Below, piece by piece: positions 2,291 through 44,669 of a stretch of DNA of 49,784 nt. The DNA is from Hysterium pulicare CBS 123377 (taxonomy: Eukaryota; Ascomycota; Dothideomycetes; Hysteriales; Hysteriaceae): NCBI GenBank assembly GCA_000467715.1, contig AJFK01000259.1, positions 1 to 49,784 on the forward strand, written 5' to 3'. Made by a program: the position numbers and the translations under genes. The notes beneath the pieces are model-generated. The model saw nothing but the letters and a program-made list of their open reading frames with translations, searched no databases and had not been told where the DNA came from. Each line of letters begins with the position of its first letter. Position 1 is the first letter of the stretch.

Positions 2291-3540
2291 TTACCAAGCA
2301 ACGTCGGCAACGGCACCGCCCCAAGGGTCATCGCCATTAGCCTCAGCACCCGTATTGGCGTCATCACCAGCAGCCCATTCGCCGGTCGCCGGAGTACCAC
2401 CATTCGGGGCACCGCCATTGTCCCAGCCGCCAACTGCCTCAGTTCCGCCGCCACCGTTCCACCCACCGACAGCTTGATTGCCGCCGCTATCGAAACCACC
2501 TCCGCCGTAGCTATCGCCTTCTTCCTTGGGAGGCTCAGGGCAACGCTTGGGACCGTGACCGACTGACGAGATGTTAACATGCCGATGGGGCAAAATCTCT
2601 TCATAATACACTTACATTGACCGCAGTTGCGGCATTTGTGCTTGCTCCAGTCTTTGGGCTCAGGACACTCCCTATCATACGTTAGCTAAGACTCCTGGCA
2701 ATGAGATATTGGGTTCGCCATACTTCGACATGTGACCCTCTTGCTCGCAATTGCGGCACCTAATCTTCTTTGGCTCGGGACAATCGACAGCCTTGTGTCC
2801 TGTAAACACTGTTAGAGACATGTCTGAGCCTGAAGGCCGTGCACCTTACCTTGCTCTCCACAGTTTCGGCAAGCGAACCCGCCGCCGCCTCCTCCACCAC
2901 CACGAGGTGGTTCTGGGCAGTCGCGCTTCATGTGGGCACCTCCGCAGTTATAGCAGCCTCCGCCACCTCCGCCACTAGGGGCCTGTGGGCAGTCACGTTT
3001 GATGTGGTCATTGCTACCACAAGTATAGCATCCGCCTCCACCGCCTCCACCACTAGGAGCCTGTGGGCAGTCGCGCTTGATATGATCAGTGCTGCCGCAA
3101 GTGAAGCAGCCATTGCCTCCACCACCAGAATTGCCTCCCTGGGGACAATCGCGTGCGAAATGGCCAGATTGACCGCAACGACGACAGCCATCATTTGAGG
3201 CGTAATTAGTATTGGTACTGTCATTGCCGAAGCCGTTCTGTGCGAAGCCATCTTGGGTTGTACCATCCTGCGCCCAGCCTTCATCGTTGTTGGTGCCGCC
3301 GACATTAGTGTCTTCGGCCCATCCGCCGTTCTGGGGAGTATTTTCGTTTCGGTTCTCGTTCTCAATGTTTTGTCGATGCTTCTTGGAGCGGGCATGAGCC
3401 GGCCAATCTACAGTCCTGATGCTACGATCGCAGACTTCACACTCGGTGAAGTTTGGTGCGACGGGACGGAGCTCGGCGTAGGGACGCGATGGAATGGGAT
3501 TCTGGATAACACCGGCGCGGCCTCCACCACCTCGAGGCAT
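2291..3540 (-). CDS. Zinc-knuckle (CCHC) protein with N-terminal U1-type C2H2 finger
   Basis: Four exons (3540-2850, 2799-2724, 2671-2616, 2562-2291; introns of 50-53 bp), 364 aa, probably a nucleic-acid-binding protein. Near residue 35 is a U1/JAZ-like finger, C-x2-C-x12-H-x5-H (starts CEVCDRS, ends KKH). An Asn-rich linker follows, then seven CCHC knuckles: CRRCGQSGHFARDC, CFTCGSTDHIKRDC, CYTCGSNDHIKRDC, CYNCGGAHMKRDC, CRNCGEQGHKAVDC, CRNCEQEGHMSKEC, CRNCGQFGHGPKRC. Gly-rich linkers separate them and the tail is Gly/Asn/Trp-rich. Knuckle 4 is one residue short between its second Cys and its His. Knuckles 5 to 7 are interrupted by introns and only appear after splicing. Relatives are the fungal Byr3/Gis2-like proteins, but the C2H2 finger makes this distinct from the Gis2 orthologue in this window. 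Partner RNAs are unknown. Confidence 0.88.
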
Positions 3541-3624
3541 GGTGAGCTAAGAGGTGAAGTATGAATCACGAAGAAATGAAGGTTGCGGGTGTTAAGTGAA
3601 CATGTGCTTTCGCGTCGATTGGAC

Positions 3625-5833: not shown

Positions 5834-7483
5834 TCACCCCACTACAGCTCCAACCGTAGGCGCAAACATCGCATACTCAGGCGGCGCATCCCTCCCCACC
5901 TCAATACCTCTAATGAACTCCTGCCGCGGCGGCGCCACACTCCTCGGCGTCCACATATCCTCCAACTCCCCCATCGCCACATGCTCAATACTCCTCGCCC
6001 TCGCATTCTCCGTCCCAGACTCGCTGCCATCGGCGCAGATCTGGATGGGGACCTTGAGCGTGAGCGAAGGGTCGCTGACGCCCGGTGCGTGGACAGAGAG
6101 ATGTAGGTTCAGGGAGTAGATGCGGGAGATCAGGCAGGAGTGGAATGTGGGCACGAAGTTCTTGTTTGGAGGGAGAGCGATGGGGACGATGATTCTAGCT
6201 GTGTAGAAGATTTTGCCGTTGTAGTTCTTCGAGGGGCATGGGATACCTGTTATGTGCGTGTTGTCGGCGGAGCAGTCCGAGATACCGGAGTCTCGACGGT
6301 CGAGGGAGCCGCGAGAGGTGGATTGAGAGGTGTGCTTTTGCCATTGGGCGGAGGCGACGCAGAGGGAGGAGAGGCTGACGGTCTCGGCGTAGAGACCTTG
6401 TGTGAGATCGATGCCCATTGTTGCGCGTGTTGGGTAGTTTTGTCGTGGTGCGCTGGAGAAGAAAGTCCCGACCTTCAGTTTGGTGGCCAAAGAACCCAGT
6501 CGTGGAGGCTGACTTTTCTCATCGGCGGGGTCGAAGCGGAGGAGTACTTTGCCCATAGTCGTGATTGGGCAGTTCTTGCTGTCTGATCGTGCACCGGGGA
6601 TGCGCAGTGCCTTGGGCTGCGCAGTCTCCATGACAAGTGTGCCCAGTTTGCCCTTGAACATACCCTTCTTGATCGTCTTCTCCCGTCGCAACTTATACTC
6701 ATCATCTTTGGCAATAACACTGAGGGGAGGCTGTTCCTCGAATGCGGGCTTGACGCGCACTTTCCTCATCCGGTCCGCAAGCACCACTACCGAGCAGTCG
6801 GATTCACGAGTCTGCGTGACCCTGACCTTGATTCCGTATGTGATCTTAGCCATGTCAGGCGCAAAATCATCTAGCAATGCGCCTCCGTGACCTGCCAGTT
6901 CTGGGTCGCCCAAGCTCGGGGGAAGCTGCATGTGTAGCTGGCGGATGTGGTCTGAAACGGTTTTGTGGGTGCATGCTCTTGGGAGGAGATGATTCGGCAC
7001 TACAAAGGTGAAGGGAAATGTGTAGGTTTTGCCTGCGAGTGCGATTCGAGGCTGTGGCAGAGTGGATTCGTCGATAGGTTGAGTAAGCTTCAAGAATCGG
7101 TGCACCGCTTCTGTTCGGCCTGATATCGTTGGCGTCGAAGTCAATCTATCGACGTGGGTCTTCGCGATGCCTGAAACACAAAAATGTCAACTACATTGGC
7201 AGGGGTTACAATCGGAGTATCATAGAGACATACCAACAAAAGAGATTTCGATATCGTCAAATCTGGTGTCGCTGCCGGCCGTAATGGACACAGTTCCTTC
7301 TAACTTATCCATTGTGGAGTAGCTCGTGACATATCCGCCATGGGCTCCATGCGCGTTATTAAGTTGGATATCGACATTTGGCCTGCCCATTTGAGCCAGA
7401 TTCCTGACTTTATAGCCGATCTGGCTCCCAATGGACTGCATTGAGGTTGCGTGCAGAGAGGCAGTGTAAGAGGCGGCCATCAT
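5834..7483 (-). CDS. Alpha-arrestin (arrestin N-domain) protein with PPxY motif
   Basis: Two exons (7483-7234 and 7170-5834; 63-bp intron with GTATGT donor), 528 aa. The N-terminal half has the beta-sandwich pattern of the arrestin N domain: VDIQLNN near 38, a strand ending FDDIEISFVG, then YTFPFTFVVPNHLLPRACTHK with LPPSLGD after it. The second half carries the arrestin C-like domain with VPIALPPNKNFVPTFHSC and a short C-tail. The tail contains PPEY, a match to the PPxY motif by which fungal alpha-arrestins recruit the Nedd4/Rsp5 ubiquitin ligase to plasma-membrane transporters. Role as a ubiquitin-ligase adaptor is inferred from family and motif; the cargo cannot be told. First ATG of exon 1 (MMAASYTASL) chosen because the frame starts there. 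Confidence 0.85.
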
Positions 7484-13964: not shown

Positions 13965-16454
13965 CTACTCCCCCAAATTCTCCACAACAACCCAAACCAT
14001 CTCCTCCGCCCCAGAAGCACCCTCCCACGCACCCCTCCCACCCCTCCTCCCCTCCTTCCACTGCCTCTTCATTTCCCTCTTCATCTCCTTCTTCTGCCCC
14101 TTATACTCCTTAAAGTCCCTCTTCCCCTCCCCCTTCTCCTTCCCCCACGCCTCCCTCTTCGCCTTCCTCTCCCTATGCCACTCTTTCTTCATAGCCCTCT
14201 TTGCTTTATGCCACTCCTTCTTCATTGCCCTCTTCTGTCTCTGCTTCTCGATCTTGTGCTCATAAGCCGTTTTCTCCGCCTCCGCTTTCGCAATCGCCGC
14301 GTCTCGCTCGCGAGAGATTTCTTCGGGGTTCTTTTTGCCTTTGGCGGTTGCCGCGAAAGCTTTCTGATTGATTTCGCGGACTTTGGAGAGGAAGCGGGTT
14401 TGGGCGCGGGAGAGTTCGTCTTCGGAATCGGAAGAAGAGGAAGACGAGGAGGAAGAAGAGCTGGAAGAGGAGGAAGAACTGTCAGAGTCGTAGTCGTGTT
14501 CCCCAGTTCCACGATGTTCTTCGCGAAGAATACCAGTTTCCTGACCTGCAGGTCCTGATCCATTGTGTACGCTCCTTTCCCTTCCACCCAATTCGGGGAC
14601 GTCGATCGAAGACGGATTGCTTCTACTACCCTCCCCAGACACTCTCCTCCCCAATCCACTCGCCCTCCTCTCAATGCGACCTCCGAATTCCTCGGCTCGC
14701 TTTCCTACCCCTTCGCCCCAAGCCTCTGCTCTCTTCCCAAACTGTTCACCCCATTCTTCGGCATGTTTGCCGAATTGCTCACCCCATGCTTCCATCTTCT
14801 TGCCGAGGTTTTCACCCCATGATGCCCAGTTTTGAGAACCACTGCCGCTCCCGTTGCGTTGCAGGGTGGGGAAAGGAGGCATAGGAGGGAAAGACGTAGG
14901 GAAATCTCGGTCTCCTCTGCCGCCTCGTCCTCCTCTACCCCCTCGACCTCCTCTGCCGCCCCAGCCATGATCGTGTGTTCCATGACGTTCGTCGTTTTCA
15001 TCATGTTCACGATGACCATGCCGCCCAAGCCCTCGACCGCCTCCTCTACCGCCCCAACTGCGTTCGTGGCGTCCGTGATCGTGGCGTCCAAATCCTCGAC
15101 CACCGCGTCCAGATCTACCTTCCTCTTCACTTCCTTCTTCTTTCCTTTGGGGCATCTTGGATCCGCCAATTCGCTCCGCCATCTCTCTCAATGCCACATT
15201 CTGCGCACTGGGTCCAGGAACATCGACCTCCACTTTCTCAACCCAAGGATGCAATGCTTGTGCTTTCTGCTCAGGTGTAGTCTGAGCATCTAGCGCAGAG
15301 GCTAGAGCACCTGCTTTCTGGCCCCTTTCTGTTGGGATATGTAGATTGTCAAGAAGGGTAGAAAGGGAATTGAGAGAGACTTGGAGACCGCGTGGCGCAA
15401 AGAATGCTTCATTTGATGAGTTGATGTAGTTCCTTACTAGCTCTGTGCTGGGGTCAGTGGGCGCGTGTAGAAGACCCAACGAGTTGGGTTTGGTGGCTAG
15501 ACACAGAGCGTTAAGACCATCCAGGAACTCCGCGAACTCAGCAGGGCGGATGGAGTGCGCGTGAAGTGCTTTTGCGTATGCACGTAAGAACTGGACTGGC
15601 TCCTTCTGGGTATGCCGCACGTCGTTCTTTGGCAAATGTTCTTCGGAAGCTGGCCATTGACCAGGCATACGCCAATCAAATGTCCCGCCACGACTCCAGG
15701 GCGAAAACGGAGGGCCTGTGGCGGACTCGTCTCTATGGCCATGCCTCCCCCCTCTTCCACCTCTTCTACCACGTCTTCGACACGAACTCACAGCGTCCTC
15801 TTTAGTAGTCAACGAACCAAGTTGCGGAATCGCGATCCTCCTGACTAAGCGAGGTGCATATCTAGCATCCGCATCAGGATCGTGCCTCGTGAATTCCAGA
15901 GCCCGTGTCAAAAGCACATCGGGGCCCAAACTCGGAATCTGGTAAACAGGAATCTGTTCACTAGACTGAACTTCAGTCACGGGAACCGTCATACCGAGCC
16001 CGTTCGCATTTCTGGTAGTGGCAGGCTGGAACTCGTACGCATTTGGATCGTCCATAATGGAAGATGTCGATCGTGGCTGTTGCTCTGCGGTTGCGGGCAT
16101 CGGATGGGGATAAGTGCCATCGCAGTTTAATTCCATTCGATGGATCTCTAGCGAATTTGGATCTAGAGGTGGGACTCCGGCTCGAGCTTGCTGGAGTGCT
16201 TCATGCTGTGCTTGCTCGTAAGAAGGCGGTAGCTCCTCGTAATGTGGGCCACTGGGGCTATGAACGGGCGTTGGCTCGAACGCATCGAATTCGTCGTCGG
16301 AATCAAAACCATCTGGGAAAGTGGAGGATCGTGGTGTAAAAGGTTGGTTTGATTGACTCGAATGACATGTAGAAATAGGGTGGAGTGGTCGTTGAGAAAG
16401 CTGCTGATCGGTTTCGTCATGCTCAATGAGCGATGTTGGCGGCTTTTCCGCCAT
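13965..16454 (-). CDS. Disordered RGG protein with two 11-residue aromatic repeat arrays
   Basis: Single-exon frame of 829 aa, starting MAEKPPTSL. In order: a Pro/Ser/acidic disordered N-terminus (1-190); a basic RGRRGGRGGRHGH patch near 230; a compact helical block (about 275-420, from VQFLRAYAKALHAHS through WVEKVEVDVPGPSAQNVALREMAERIGG); a His-rich RGG region (about 430-520); five 11-residue repeats W-G-E-x-[LFV]-G-K-x-A-E-x (from about residue 546); a poly-Ser run with acidic ends (about 660-680); and a highly charged C-terminal helix. This helix holds further 11-residue repeats beginning KRAMKKEWH. RGG boxes usually bind RNA or drive condensates. The 11-mers have hydrophobic positions 1, 5 and 9, as in lipid-binding amphipathic helices. 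I recognise no named homologue and infer no enzymatic activity. The short tail after the charged helix could be changed by an unseen intron. Confidence 0.75.
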   Translation of the reverse strand: MAEKPPTSLIEHDETDQQLSQRPLHPISTCHSSQSNQPFTPRSSTFPDGFDSDDEFDAFEPTPVHSPSGPHYEELPPSYEQAQHEALQQARAGVPPLDPNSLEIHRMELNCDGTYPHPMPATAEQQPRSTSSIMDDPNAYEFQPATTRNANGLGMTVPVTEVQSSEQIPVYQIPSLGPDVLLTRALEFTRHDPDADARYAPRLVRRIAIPQLGSLTTKEDAVSSCRRRGRRGGRGGRHGHRDESATGPPFSPWSRGGTFDWRMPGQWPASEEHLPKNDVRHTQKEPVQFLRAYAKALHAHSIRPAEFAEFLDGLNALCLATKPNSLGLLHAPTDPSTELVRNYINSSNEAFFAPRGLQVSLNSLSTLLDNLHIPTERGQKAGALASALDAQTTPEQKAQALHPWVEKVEVDVPGPSAQNVALREMAERIGGSKMPQRKEEGSEEEGRSGRGGRGFGRHDHGRHERSWGGRGGGRGLGRHGHREHDENDERHGTHDHGWGGRGGRGGRGGRGGRGDRDFPTSFPPMPPFPTLQRNGSGSGSQNWASWGENLGKKMEAWGEQFGKHAEEWGEQFGKRAEAWGEGVGKRAEEFGGRIERRASGLGRRVSGEGSRSNPSSIDVPELGGRERSVHNGSGPAGQETGILREEHRGTGEHDYDSDSSSSSSSSSSSSSSSSSDSEDELSRAQTRFLSKVREINQKAFAATAKGKKNPEEISRERDAAIAKAEAEKTAYEHKIEKQRQKRAMKKEWHKAKRAMKKEWHRERKAKREAWGKEKGEGKRDFKEYKGQKKEMKREMKRQWKEGRRGGRGAWEGASGAEEMVWVVVENLGE
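14103..14234 (-). repeat. 33-bp coding tandem repeat (Trp 11-mers), C-terminal array
   Basis: Four in-frame 33-bp units inside the RGG-protein gene. The first two are nearly identical (KRAMKKEWHKA and KRAMKKEWHRE); the third and fourth are diverged but keep an aromatic at position 8 (W, W, W, F). Two weaker units follow down to about 14037. The low divergence of the first pair suggests recent duplication. Confidence 0.75.
14655..14819 (-). repeat. 33-bp coding tandem repeat (Trp/Phe 11-mers), central array
   Basis: Five in-frame 33-bp units encode 11-residue repeats with Trp (Phe in the last) at position 1, L/F/F/V/I at 5 and M/A at 9. Gly is at 2, Glu at 3 in the first four units, basic residues at 7-8, and Glu at 10 in the first four. 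Hydrophobic spacing of 4, 4 and 3 is the signature of an 11/3 amphipathic helix. Confidence 0.8.
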
Positions 16455-20115: not shown

Positions 20116-21148
20116 CTAAGCCACGGCTGTGGTTGGAGCCGGTGGCTGGACAGTCGAGTTCGCTTGGGCGGGAGGGACACCTTCGCCATTTACTTCGGCT
20201 TGAGGACATTCGCGGCTAATATGGCCTAATTGTGAGGTTAGATTTGACATTATCGCCATCCACAAAGAATTATCGACGTACCAGCTTCTCCGCATCGGTA
20301 GCAGGTCTTTCCAGCTGTGTTGAGTGGTCCACCGTTCGGAGCTGTACAATCTCGGCTGATATGCCCGAGTTTACCTAGACCAATCATTAGCTAATGCAAC
20401 CAAGCATCTGTACAATCACGTATTTACTTACCACAAGCATAACACTTCATTGCCTGTGCCTGACAATCCCTTGCGAAATGATTCGGACCTTTTAGCGCAC
20501 TTAGTATCTGGGTTGCAATGGAGGGCTAGACGCTCCAACTCACCTCCGCACCGGTAGCAAGTGGCGGGTCTGGGTCCACCAGCGAAGCCTCCTCGGAAAC
20601 CTCCACCAAAGCCGCCCCGAGGAGGGCCGCCAGCACCCCGACCCATACCACCAGCACCTCCGGGATTAGGGCACGATCTTGCGAGGTGGCCGGGCGAGCC
20701 ACATGCATAGCACCGGCCGCTCGAGGCTCCGCTTAATCGAAGCGTTGGGCAATCGGCTTGGACGTGGCCCAGCCCTTGACAATGGTAGCACTGCTTTGCT
20801 GAAAAACCTGTTAGTTGAATGAAGTAAAACGGAGTAATACGATCACGTGTCAAAGCGCACGGACCATATTCGTTGAGCATGTCATTCCAATCCCTCGTGC
20901 GCCAAAGGAAGAATCAAAGATATATACGTACTCTCAGTAGTCCGTGGATGAGGGCAGCCGTTGCTCTCATGTCCAGGCTGCTTGCCTATATCCACACTGA
21001 ATCAGTTCCTGCATCTCCTATTGTAGTATTCCATTTCTTTCAGATATCTCTTACAGTTGTAGCACAGTCTTTCGCTCGAGGAGCAGACTTCGGCGTAATG
21101 GCCGACATTGCCACATTTATAGCAGGCGCGGCGTGATAATGATGACAT
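20116..21148 (-). CDS. GIS2: Gis2/CNBP/Byr3-like protein with seven CCHC zinc knuckles
   Basis: Six exons (21148-21055, 20985-20932, 20798-20544, 20488-20432, 20374-20282, 20225-20116), 220 aa. Relatives bind single-stranded nucleic acid, mRNA and ribosomes, and act in translation and stress granules. Seven knuckles are visible: CYKCGNVGHYAEVC at residue 9, CYNCKQPGHESNGC, CYHCQGLGHVQADC, CYACGSPGHLARSC, CYRCGGPNHFARDC, CYACGKLGHISRDC and CYRCGEAGHISREC. A Gly/Arg-rich (RGG-like) spacer separates knuckles 4 and 5, a typical arrangement in Pezizomycotina. The number and spacing match yeast Gis2, which has seven. Four of the five introns split knuckles, so unspliced frames miss them. The start at MSSLSRRACYKCG is the conserved family start. 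An in-frame ATG further upstream is not needed. Confidence 0.93.
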
Positions 21149-40912: not shown

Positions 40913-41687
40913 TTAGGTTGGCCGCCCCTCACGCAACTTATGCCCTGGTCCCGAGTGGTCATGAAATTGGCATCGATCGATGTTCGCCCATGCCTCTCGA
41001 CCTACACATTTCGTGTTATTGGACTCAAACGTCTCCGAAAGAACATCCAAAAGAAACTCCTTGGTGTAGTCTTTTGTCTTGCTCCGGAAAGTCTCAGCGT
41101 TTGAGGTTCTGCACCTCATGGCGACAAGGAATTTCCGCAGCGGATCGTTCTCCATCGTGTTCTCGTACACGTAAGGAATGCACATGTTAGGATATCGCCA
41201 TGTCACGGTGTTGACTTCATGGAGAAGGTCTATCGCTGCATTCTTTAATCCCGGAATACCCCTCATGTCTCCGTAGACGTATACCTTGCAAATGAGAAGT
41301 TCATCTAAGTAGTTTGGTTCTTCTTCGGGGTCGCTAGGCGTGGATTGCAAGCGGTGAGTGTATAACCAACAGTAGAACGCTTCGAACACATCGACTTCAT
41401 CCTGCGGCAACTCGAATGTTGGGCTGCTAGACTCTTCGAATCGGCCCTTGAAGAGACCCGCGAAGTATGCAGAGTTCCAGGTGAGAATGCCTTTGTGGAT
41501 TTTGAACTCCTTCTTTTCTTCGCCGACTAGTATAGAGATGAGCTCGTCGTGGCAGGACCTATTAAATAATTAGCTAATTGATTTTGAATAGGGTTATTTA
41601 ATGGTGGACTTACATTGGTGGAAACGGGATGGGGTGTGAGCATGTCGTAAAAGCCGGCATCTTGAATGGCTTCTTTTGGGTTGTCAT
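40913..41687 (-). CDS. BTB/POZ domain protein, cluster copy 1
   Basis: Two exons (41687-41614, 41558-40913; 55-bp intron), 239 aa. The BTB/POZ fold starts right after the intron: SCHDELISILVGEEKKEFKI, HKGILTWNSAYFAGLFKGRF, LPQDEVDVFEAFYCWLYTHRL. A helical BACK-like segment follows with YVYGDMRGIPGLKNAAIDLLHE and the ending DRCQFHDHS. Fungal proteins of this type are numerous. BTB domains mediate dimerisation or Cullin-3 binding, but no function can be assigned. Exon 1 is 74 bp with the intron in phase 2, identical in length and phase to the next copy, so the two are tandem duplicates. The start ATG is fixed by that homology. Confidence 0.87.
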
Positions 41688-42168
41688 TTCTCGGAAAGGA
41701 CAGTTGGTAGTTGCTAGACGAAAGCTTTCCGTTCGAAATAGAACGCTATAGCGTTTTGTATAATTACGATCAGCTCAAGAAGTGAATGTACAGAGATGAA
41801 AGGGAGACAAAATCATGGAATGTCTTAATCACATCAACATTGTTTACCTTCATTCGTGTTAACAATTGTTCATATTCAATCACATTAGCAATCACTGCTT
41901 ACCTAGAATCACCTAAACATTGTTTACCCCAAACGGTGATCACAAGTAGATTCCAGAACCGATCTAAGTATTCTGTGACAAAAATGAATTTCATGATTTT
42001 AGTATTTTGGATATTTCCTATACTGCATTGTGAAGTTCCGATGAGGGCCAGATATCCTGCCAATTCTTCTTCGGCAACATTATTCCCTGAGAATGATTTT
42101 TTGTTGCTGCTCATTATGGCCTTCCCTTGTGCACACGCCACGTTCTGATATCGAGTGGATAACTTAGG
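41688..42168. other. Intergenic region between BTB copies 1 and 2
   Basis: About 480 bp holding the promoter of copy 1 and the 3' flank of copy 2. The string AACATTGTTTACC occurs twice about 80 bp apart (near 41837 and 41915). No gene. Confidence 0.5.
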
Positions 42169-42972
42169 CTATGAAGCCGGCGATGGATGCTGTAATAACT
42201 TGATACCAGGAGGGTCAGAATGATCGTGATATTGGCACCTATCAATCCTTGCCCAGCTGTCCCTATTGAGAAGGCCCCATTGTCTGCCTTGGGCCGACAA
42301 GGCTAAGATCACATCGTAAAGCGAGTCCGGCGGTAGGAATCTTCGATTCATATGCTTGAAAGCCTCAAGATCCTTGGTTCCAACAATCAGATCAATAACA
42401 AACTTCCGGAGTGGCGAGGACTCAGTTGTGCTGTCATAGATATAGGGAATCACTCCAGTGGGCACTATCCAATGAGTAGTGACGTATTCGTGAAGTCGAT
42501 CAATCGCTTCATTTTTGACTCCAGGAATGTCGCGCATATCTCCAAATACGAAAAGCTTGGCCAGGGTATGGCACGGATAGCCCTTGAGCATATTGGGTTC
42601 TGTAGATAGGTTGGAAAGCTCTCCAAATTGTCCGGTATACAACCAGCACCTAAAGGCTTCGAAGACTCTTGCATCGTCATTGGGAAGCTCGACTGTGCGT
42701 GTTTGGCTCTCCTTGAAACCCCCATTCAATGCAGCGGCAAAGTACGATGAGTGCCAGGCGAGGAGGTTCCCATGCAGCAAGTATTCCTTCTTTCCTTCAC
42801 CGACAATAACTGTGACGAGGTTGTCGAAATCATAGCAGGAACTGGAGTTTATTAACCAGGAAGTTTCAGAAAAACTCGTGGGAGACGTCGTCACTTACAT
42901 TGGAGGTTTTGGCATGGGAAAGGAGCATGGCTTGAGCTCGGGCATCTTGTAAGATGGCCTGGGAGTCGACAT
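42169..42972 (-). CDS. BTB/POZ domain protein, cluster copy 2
   Basis: Two exons (42972-42899, 42841-42169; 57-bp intron), 248 aa. BTB core: SCYDFDNLVTVIVGEGKKEY, HGNLLAWHSSYFAAALNGGF, LPNDDARVFEAFRCWLYTGQF. A BACK-like stretch follows (FVFGDMRDIPGVKNEAIDRLHEY) and the ending DRCQYHDHS. The N-terminal peptide MSTPRPSYKMPELKPCSF parallels that of copy 1 (MTTQKKPFKMPAFTTCSH) with the same 74-bp exon. An unspliced frame from an ATG at 42894 exists but lacks this conserved N-terminus, so the spliced model is preferred. Function unknown. Confidence 0.87.
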
Positions 42973-43789
42973 GGTGACGTTTGCATGGACTTTTTGGGTC
43001 ACTCGCGATGTCGTTCAATTGGCGTTATTAGGATGAGGATAGGTTGAGGCGAAATCTATATCTGTCAATCAAGGTGTGGTGAGATAGGTGAAGTGGATTT
43101 AAGTGAGAGTGAAGATAAAGAAGACGATACTTCACTCCAATCAAGCTTCACTTACCCGAACGGTACCTAAGAACTTCTTTCCAAATACGGACATCCTGGA
43201 AATATAAAGATTCCACAGTCAGCAGAAAGTAACAAGACTCACACGGGGTGTCATCATTCTTCGTTTCCAGAGGATAGGTCTGCGCTTACCACCTTCTTTC
43301 CTACCAGCCTACAAAGCCGATTTGACCTCTGTACAATGCATTAAAGCCAGTTGCTGTCCTTGAGATTATCCGGAAAGTAGCTTGCAGAATAGAATCTATC
43401 CAGAGTTGTGCGGCTATGGAAGTCTGTAGTATGTCCCAATAATGACACCCATTTTTTTCACGAATGACCTCACATTCAACCCAGTTTGAACTTCACATCC
43501 TTGAAACAGTCCTGTCACTGGTTGACCCCGGCAAATCAATATGCTCAGGATTCGTCCATGAAACCGTGAGCTTGTACAATGTAGAATGAATGTGAATGTT
43601 TTTACTCAATGGACCGATATTGTTGAGCTCGTTCAGTGGTCTTAGCAATTTCAAGCAAGTACAGAGTAAACCCGAGATATCCCAGATTTCTTGGTATGGG
43701 GAATAGTACTTTTAGTGCATTAAATCAAGCACAAACCGGAAACAGGCCACTCACTATCGAATGAGAGACCTCATCCACAGCTGCTCCGA
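42973..43789. other. Intergenic region between BTB copies 2 and 3
   Basis: About 820 bp holding the promoter/leader of copy 2 and the 3' flank of copy 3. No coding potential or repeat recognised. Confidence 0.5.
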
Positions 43790-44669
43790 CTACTTCAAAG
43801 GATGTCCATGCCACCGACAAGCACATACATCCTGAGCATTCTCCCCACCATACGTCCAGTAATCCTTCCCCTGAATTATCTCCACCAAATCATCCTTCGT
43901 AAAGTGGTCGGCCTGACACCCAATGTCCATCGCGTTAGCGAACATCGCCACCAGTTCGATGAGCATGTTGTAGATTTTCGAATGCTCCGGCGTGTTCTCT
44001 CGAACGTAGGAAATTGAATCCAAGGGAACATACTTCTCACGCGCAATTTTCTGGAGGAGGAGCGTGACGATCGTGTCCATCAGGTCGTGGATGCCCCGGG
44101 CATCGGCGAAGATGTATAGGTCGCAGAGGGTCTGATGGGAAAGTGCAGGATTGGGATCGAGAAATACGCGTTCATCTTCGACCCAGTGGAAACTTAGCCA
44201 GAGGCTGTTTAGCTTTACGCTGGAGATGACACTGATATCGAGAGTCATTCCATCGTAGAGTCTACCGGTGTAGAGCCAATTTCGGAAGAGCTCGAAGATC
44301 TTCGGGTCATCGTCTTTGAGTTCGACTAATCCTGTCTTGCCTTCCTTGAACTCGGAGTTGAAGGCCTTGGAGAAGTAGGAGGAGTAGTGTGAGATCAGGC
44401 CTTTGTGGACTGAAAACTGCCTCGGATTATCTTTGCCGACGATGATGGAGACCATGGTATCGAAACATGCTCTACCAGTGGACAATTAGTTCGGTATCAA
44501 CAGTTTCAATTAAGCCAACTTACACAGGAGTAGCATGGAGTGCAGAGGGGCAAGAGGGGCAAGCCTGACTTATGGGCGCGACGGGGCTTTGATGCTGGGA
44601 CGTAGGCTTTTGGCGGTTTCTTCTGCGTAGCGCAGCTTGGATTGCGTCTTGCGAGGGGAAGGATGCCAT
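43790..44669 (-). CDS. BTB/POZ domain protein, cluster copy 3
   Basis: Two exons (44669-44524, 44471-43790; 52-bp intron), 275 aa. BTB core after the intron: ACFDTMVSIIVGKDNPRQFSV, HKGLISHYSSYFSKAFNSEF, LKDDDPKIFELFRNWLYTGRL. Then a segment longer than in copies 1 and 2, LYIFADARGIHDLMDTIVTLL, and the ending CACRWHGHPLK. The intron lies at the same place and phase (2) as in the other copies, just before the conserved Cys, but exon 1 is twice as long (starts MASFPSQDAIQAAL, basic). It is therefore a more diverged member of the same family. Function unknown. Confidence 0.82.

Follow-up and report, generated by a model that had tools for sequence, protein, structure and literature searches.

An 11-residue repeat predicted to form an amphipathic helix in a disordered, Arg/Gly-rich protein of Hysterium pulicare

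Apolipoproteins contain 11-residue amphipathic units, and their 22-residue repeats are punctuated by Pro. A straight helix with an aromatic edge is a shape that usually binds fat or membrane surfaces, or other helices. In the part of PMC4807253 that is accessible, the 11-residue regions of perilipins are described as sufficient for lipid droplet targeting and as becoming more helical in micelles, and those of PLIN1 are modelled on apoA-IV (3s84). Here, we analysed a comparable repeat (array 1) in a 49,784-nucleotide stretch of DNA from the fungus Hysterium pulicare CBS 123377 (contig AJFK01000259.1, positions 1 to 49,784; the window). Array 1 is encoded on the minus strand, within an uninterrupted open reading frame (ORF) of 829 residues (protein P0001). 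Our preferred interpretation, to which we give a probability of about 0.42, is that residues 546-600 of this protein are a selected 11/3 amphipathic helix that folds on a lipid surface.

The first-pass annotation of the window had described five consecutive in-frame 33-bp units at positions 14655..14819, with Trp or Phe at position 1, Leu, Phe, Val or Ile at position 5, Met or Ala at position 9 and alternating Glu and Lys elsewhere. Translation gave WGENLGKKMEA, WGEQFGKHAEE, WGEQFGKRAEA, WGEGVGKRAEE and FGGRIERRASG for units 1 to 5. The coordinates proved exact, and positions 1, 5 and 9 were occupied as described in 5/5 units. Two points of the description had to be amended. The alternation of Glu and Lys omits Gly, which is found at position 2 in 5/5 units and at position 6 in 4/5 (12 Gly in the 55 residues). 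Moreover, all five units are present but unit 5 is degenerate, having 1-3 of 11 residues in common with units 1-4 and keeping mainly the hydrophobic positions. On an 11/3 wheel, W/F lies at 0 degrees, L/F/V/I at 33, A/M at 65 and the two G at 98 and 131, the rest of the wheel being mostly E, E, K, A/E, N/Q/G/R and K/H/R. The helix would therefore display an aromatic edge with an adjoining stripe of small residues, bordered on opposite sides by an acidic and a basic flank.

The hydrophobic moment was calculated with the Fauchere-Pliska and Eisenberg scales. On both scales, the moment of array 1 peaked at 98 degrees (Fauchere-Pliska, 0.50 at 98.18 degrees), and the phase of the moment vector stayed at 25-42 degrees in all five units. 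None of 20000 full shuffles of residues 546-600 had a moment as high. In a stricter control, the 11 columns were permuted alike in every unit, the repeat being retained. The moment was then reached in 475 of 20000 trials with the Fauchere-Pliska scale and in 1315 of 20000 with the Eisenberg scale. The 4-4-3 spacing had been read as that of an 11/3 amphipathic helix; the moment peak, the constant phase of the face and the single helix predicted over residues 539-601 all bear this reading out.

Identity at a lag of 11 residues was also compared with chance; the value was equalled in 0/2000 shuffles of array 1, whether scored at lag 11 or over all lags between 8 and 22. The genome searched was a 37.2 Mb assembly of 596 contigs, the window being contig C204. 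From this genome, a comparison set of 291 ORFs of at least 120 residues was drawn from 226905 bases (the window and 19 loci), in all six frames, so that the set includes the window itself and many ORFs that are not genes. Array 1 came top of this set for lag-11 identity (26/44); the runner-up, with 15, was an ORF on the opposite strand across the 3′ part of the same gene. Its 55-residue moment (0.53) was the highest of 50976 windows from the 291 ORFs, the next distinct segment reaching 0.41. Elsewhere in the genome, an ORF segment at locus L010, REFGKFHQDFQKGAGVIQDAFNDAANKAE, is amphipathic with a fairly high 11/3 moment of 0.39.

No 33-bp array was listed at 14655-14819 by Tandem Repeats Finder (minimum score 50), showing that the DNA copies have diverged. 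In pairwise comparisons, units 1-4 had 18-23 of 33 bases and 6-9 of 11 residues in common. Across the six pairs, nonsynonymous differences per site (pN) amounted to 0.15-0.32, while synonymous differences per site (pS) amounted to 0.71-1.37 in five pairs and 0.48 in pair 1-2; these are small counts, obtained with a simple method that overcounts codons with several changes. Unit 5 gave pN values of 0.45-0.61 against units 1-4. Within units 1-4, silent sites have thus largely turned over and the residue pattern has been retained. Because residues were kept while silent sites changed, the register is not that of a fresh duplication. Array 1 might be mere low complexity, or an old duplication without function, as its low-complexity neighbourhood (Ser run, RGG), the degenerate unit 5 and the 2-7 percent of column-permuted repeats that reach its moment would allow; we hold this to be very unlikely given that residues were kept despite the divergence of the DNA and that no other of the 291 ORFs comes near it in lag-11 identity. 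Overall, an in-frame 11-residue period, a continuous W/F, L/F/V/I, A/M face with a flanking Gly stripe and conservation of residues despite diverged DNA are observed in array 1, together with a predicted helix.

Structure prediction was performed with AlphaFold2 on the single sequence, as one chain and without an alignment; run in this way, it supports helicity and is silent on partners or oligomers. Residues 539-601 were modelled as one helix. The mean helix propensity was 0.48 for array 1 as compared to 0.39 for residues 710-811, that of array 1 being lowered by Gly. In the model of the whole protein, 563/829 residues were below a pLDDT of 50, and the middle region modelled alone was poor (mean pLDDT 41.4). 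P0001 contains 18 RG dipeptides, 10 of them within RGG. The protein hence joins RG/RGG repeats to low-pLDDT disorder, as expected of an RGG-type RNA-binding or condensate protein, and the placing of the amphipathic 11-mers within a disordered RGG protein stands. These same features would suit another explanation, in which Trp and Arg/Lys act as cation-pi stickers in a disordered chain, drive condensation together with the RG-rich parts and owe their register to duplication as a by-product. We consider it improbable in view of the strict register with its constant face phase, of the retention of residues while silent sites changed and of the helix predicted with block pLDDT values of 66-84 amid a low-confidence chain.

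We then compared array 1 with known families. Used alone as a query against the PDB, it matched apoA-IV with E-values of 6e-5 and 2.6e-4 for whole sequences, no single stretch being significant; the following matches were a designed helical bundle, 4uos (E 0.31), and apoE (E 0.37). Against Pfam, array 1 alone matched Apolipoprotein (PF01442) with E 1.8e-4 and 21.7 bits, the cut-off being 90. When the PF01442 profile was searched against the genome, the site of array 1 ranked first of four (18.2 bits, E 0.03, below cut-off). As the best outside matches of array 1 alone, apoA-IV and Pfam Apolipoprotein lend weak backing to the comparison with lipid-binding 11-mers. With apolipoproteins (PF01442, apoA-IV, apoE), array 1 has in common the 11-residue amphipathic units and the 11/3 moment peak at 98 degrees. 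It differs from them in lacking the Pro punctuation of the 22-mers, residues 536-612 containing no Pro. The likeness to perilipins (PLIN1-3 and relatives) lies in an 11/3 amphipathic helix whose folding would be induced by contact, and the chain matched by array 1, apoA-IV 3s84, is the modelling template of PLIN1 in the accessible part of PMC4807253. Unlike in perilipins, every unit of array 1 has a single Trp/Phe and one or two Gly in constant positions, and the surroundings of the array are RG-rich. Two family assignments were tried and rejected: array 1 is not an apolipoprotein proper (21.7 bits against a cut-off of 90, and a whole-protein search without match), and the gene is not a perilipin proper, PF03036 having no match in Pfam scans of the whole protein or of the array. 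A single sub-cut-off place for PF03036 (E 0.0097) was found in the genome, on another contig. Synuclein and LEA 11-mers have the same 11/3 periodicity as array 1; Pfam scans of the whole protein and of the array reported neither family.

If array 1 binds lipid, the following sequence of events may be proposed. With 12 Gly in 55 residues, the segment would be only marginally helical in water and would fold when a hydrophobic surface is available to its aromatic edge. The likeliest surface would be a phospholipid one, monolayer or bilayer, on a lipid droplet or another organelle, as with perilipin and apolipoprotein 11-mers. Acidic lipid heads or RNA might in addition attract the basic array 2, described below. 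The disordered, RG-rich parts would then be kept at that surface. An Arg/Gly-rich, condensate-type chain would then be coupled to a membrane or droplet by perilipin-like 11-mers in a fungal protein.

Several results weigh against this proposal. The net charge of array 1 (-1) and its hydrophobicity (mean 0.10 over 18-mers) are weak for lipid binding, and a HeliQuest-type score exceeded 0.68 in 8/46 windows and 1.34 in 0/46. The array has five units only, the last one being degenerate, and the column-permutation control was passed only modestly, showing a preference for the amphipathic order of columns that is not overwhelming. The spacing is equally compatible with a hendecad helix bundle, and a designed bundle is among the PDB matches. 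Finally, with the whole 829-residue protein as query, apoA-IV and Pfam Apolipoprotein were absent at E-values up to 1, and the PF01442 profile gave sub-cut-off matches in 13/14 control bacterial and archaeal genomes. It follows from these last two results that the apolipoprotein match means amphipathic 11-mers, not descent. The likeness to lipid-binding 11-mers put forward in the first-pass annotation therefore survives, weakly, for the array alone and is lost with the whole protein.

A second 11-residue periodicity (array 2) was found at residues 737-791: KQRQKRAMKKE, WHKAKRAMKKE, WHRERKAKREA, WGKEKGEGKRD, FKEYKGQKKEM. Lag-11 identity in residues 691-815 was 14/33, a value reached by 0/2000 shuffles at lag 11 and by 5/2000 when all lags between 8 and 22 were allowed. 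The ungapped match of array 1 with array 2 was equalled by 0/300 shuffles. Positions 5 and 9 of array 2 are Lys/Arg, unlike the hydrophobic residues of array 1; the net charge on residues 739-793 is +16 and the moment is 0.29, with 75/20000 shuffles as high. Array 2 is therefore a basic, Trp-ribbed helix, not a second copy of the array 1 surface. Within helix 710-811, the HeliQuest-type score was above 0.68 in 69/85 windows, mainly via charge, and this helix could provide positive charge for surface binding.

The geometry of array 1 is fitted both by a helix on a lipid surface and by a hendecad coiled coil or helix bundle, the latter being possible, if less probable. Self-association of this kind would join copies of the RGG protein into oligomers, or bring array 1 together with array 2. 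The a-de-h spacing of right-handed hendecad coiled coils can be read in the units, with position 9 (A/M) as a, 1 (W/F) as d, 2 (G) as e and 5 (L/F/V/I) as h, in a slightly right-handed arrangement. Trp rings would lie over the Gly/Ala stripe of the neighbouring helix, and the acidic flank (positions 3 and 10) would pair with the basic one (position 8). To our knowledge, Trp in nearly every core unit together with two Gly per unit is unusual for coiled coils. Array 1 differs from the hendecad coiled coils in these core positions, and its sole PDB bundle match, 4uos, is a designed protein. Nevertheless, this match, even though weak, the identical 4-4-3 spacing with its Gly/Ala stripe and the near-zero net charge with opposite charges on two flanks are all consistent with packing of helices. 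The presence of a second 11-residue array in the same protein also agrees with a bundle, but that array has Lys/Arg in place of hydrophobic residues at positions 5 and 9, and AlphaFold2 run on one chain cannot show an oligomer. Should array 1 form bundles, it would describe a Trp/Gly mode of hendecad packing.

The first-pass annotation had also called the joining of such a helix to RGG disorder in one protein unusual, and suggested a tether between RNA or a condensate and a membrane. The combination is real. It has, however, a precedent: the accessible part of PMC13123921 describes plant PMF proteins as having an amphipathic helix and a phase-separating disordered region in one protein. In that source, they belong to the plant mitochondrial outer membrane, and their likeness to P0001 is one of make-up. 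Binding of RNA by the RG/RGG-rich parts of P0001 may be suggested from their composition; the Pfam scan of the whole 829-residue protein gave no accepted RNA-binding domain. A tether of this kind would require both lipid binding and RNA binding. We also considered the septal-pore SPA/SPP proteins, whose disorder is biased to Arg/His and poor in Lys/Gly according to the accessible part of PMC10023807. On that description, P0001 is weakly disfavoured as a protein of this type, having 93 Gly and 44 Lys besides 78 Arg and 34 His.

Similar 11-mers were found outside fungi. Bacterial and archaeal species genomes were scanned with the fungal array as a 65-residue query; the E-values hold relative to the candidates only. 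Of 450 pattern matches, 18 loci (L043-L060) encoded a relative by tblastn. We take 16 of them to be Bacteroidota, chiefly Flavobacteriia, and two (L059, L060) to be Firmicutes. By reading, the ORFs fall into two unrelated protein types, the first of which begins with an apparent signal peptide, as judged by eye. None of the five ORFs tested against Pfam had an accepted domain; L043 showed a sub-cut-off DUF2884 match over its array. A word of 9-13 residues was common to the fungal array and 18/18 loci, GKKMEAWGEQFGK being identical in 7/18; this sharing is partly built in by the choice of seeds from the query, the placement of the word within arrays less so. Bacterial units selected for an initial Trp (56 distinct ones) most often had the residues of the fungal units at positions 2, 3, 5, 7 and 10. 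In contrast, position 6 was mostly Glu and position 9 mostly Met, where array 1 has Gly and Ala, and the bacterial arrays are more loosely spaced, with some steps of 7 or 8 residues and some longer ones.

BLASTP of the whole fungal protein against a database of the 18 ORFs, with the low-complexity filter off, gave array 1 and its flanks as the best hit of each (E 4e-13 to 3e-6). Outside array 1, only residues 700-776 (basic helix) matched below E 0.02, to the same bacterial stretch (E 0.002, 0.007 and 0.015), as charged helices would. Fungal-bacterial matches were thus confined to array-like or charged stretches. At the seven loci with the 13-residue word, the DNA was identical at 30-35 of 39 bases; counted with Met and Trp codons, agreement at third codon positions was 4-9 of 13. 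There is no clear sign of recent transfer, though the stretch is too short to exclude it. The likeness of the WGExFGKxMEA units in fungus and bacteria is apparently a convergence.

The occurrence of two WGE 33 bases apart was also searched. In the fungal genome, three overlapping places were found, all within array 1 (control 0), and the genomes of L046 and L059 had one place each (control 0). When 296 genomes from the phylum to which L046 belongs were scanned, the pattern was present in 6, the control giving 6 places in 4 genomes; among these matches, the reading WGExFGKKMEA was found only in L062, which is the starting genome itself, and L063. As the two-unit pattern is at background in this set, the convergence claim rests on the longer arrays. 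The bacterial 11-mers occur mostly in ORFs with an apparent signal peptide (by eye), indicating that the 11-mer is not tied to a cytoplasmic lipid surface, a point in favour of the hendecad bundle. Under the lipid or the bundle reading, the similar bacterial 11-mer suggests that this sequence solution has arisen repeatedly. It could even be imagined, and we regard this as unlikely, that WGExFGKxMEA is a recurrent convergent cassette, a general surface-binding or bundle-forming module of unrelated fungal, Bacteroidota and Firmicutes proteins with nearly identical Trp/Gly-striped 11/3 helices, here pinning an RGG, PPxY-bearing disordered scaffold to a surface jointly with a basic 11-residue array.

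Within the fungal genome, array 1 and the middle region each matched only themselves at E-values up to 10 (best candidates scored). DNA patterns for an NxxFFxPRGL-like motif gave 2 places (control 0), one being this gene, and 11 places (control 16). Residues 160-445 compared by tblastn with 12 motif loci had a single match, L029, whose E-value of 0.32 indicates no paralogue. This motif may resemble Aspergillus proteins annotated RfeF, a resemblance that carries no claim. The accessible part of PMC2644712 attests RfeF as an annotation name. Viral contigs gave 2 and 40 pattern matches with 0 confirmed relatives, phages gave no relative, and plasmids gave two Rhizobium records (E 0.2). NCBIfam had no match at E-values up to 1. 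Several weak matches were set aside as uninformative: for the whole protein, Pfam SR-25 (E 0.01) and DUF4692 (E 0.23), both below cut-off and over the Ser-rich part, and mS141 in the PDB (E 0.19); for the middle region, Erf4 (E 0.055); for array 1, DUF1138 (E 0.28). In the open-licence literature, exact peptide words had no match, and none of the papers listed for other search words concerned P0001 or fungal Trp/Gly 11-mers.

Table 1. Coordinates in the window of the P0001 ORF and of the features it encodes.
Feature	Residues	Position	Strand	Remarks
Uninterrupted ORF (P0001), holds array 1	829 aa	13965..16454	minus	start context GTCACCATGGCG
PPSY motif, near N terminus	76-79	16218..16229	minus	
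First Arg/Gly cluster	226-241	15732..15779	minus	RRRGRRGGRGGRHGHR
Middle region, short predicted helices, without accepted family	287-430	15165..15596	minus	low-confidence model
Main RG/RGG region	447-515	14910..15116	minus	
Array 1, five 11-mers	546-600	14655..14819	minus	
Predicted continuous helix	539-601	14652..14840	minus	AlphaFold2; 10-residue block pLDDT 66-84 over 541-600
17-Ser run, linker separating array 1 from array 2	659-675	14430..14480	minus	
Predicted long helix	710-811	14022..14327	minus	AlphaFold2; block pLDDT 90-95 to 800, 74 for 801-810
Array 2, basic 11-residue periodicity	737-791	14082..14246	minus	W748, W759, W770, F781

The last residues of P0001 (817-829, EEMVWVVVENLGE, 13968-14006, minus strand) form an acidic-WxxV sequence, a candidate Atg8-interacting motif by its resemblance to the pattern of such motifs. 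At the other end of the protein, the PPSY motif is of the PPxY kind, bound by the WW domains of Rsp5/NEDD4. An ORF of the window at 5834-7186 (minus strand) has sub-cut-off Bul1 matches (E 7.5e-5). PPxY motifs and Bul1 are both linked to the Rsp5 ubiquitin ligase in yeast, and the presence of a PPSY motif and a Bul1-like ORF in one window may be a coincidence.

Nineteen neighbouring ORFs were scanned for domains. One has a fungal transcription factor domain (E 1.1e-32), and DUF6536, a class II tRNA synthetase core, CCHC zinc knuckles, Sel1 repeats and BTB were found among the others; these domains identify the genome as fungal. Several CCHC zinc knuckles are present in each of two ORFs, at 2812-3546 and 20428-20913 (both minus strand). 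Lastly, three BTB-domain ORFs lie on the same strand within 3.6 kb (40913-44485, minus strand), perhaps as a tandem family.

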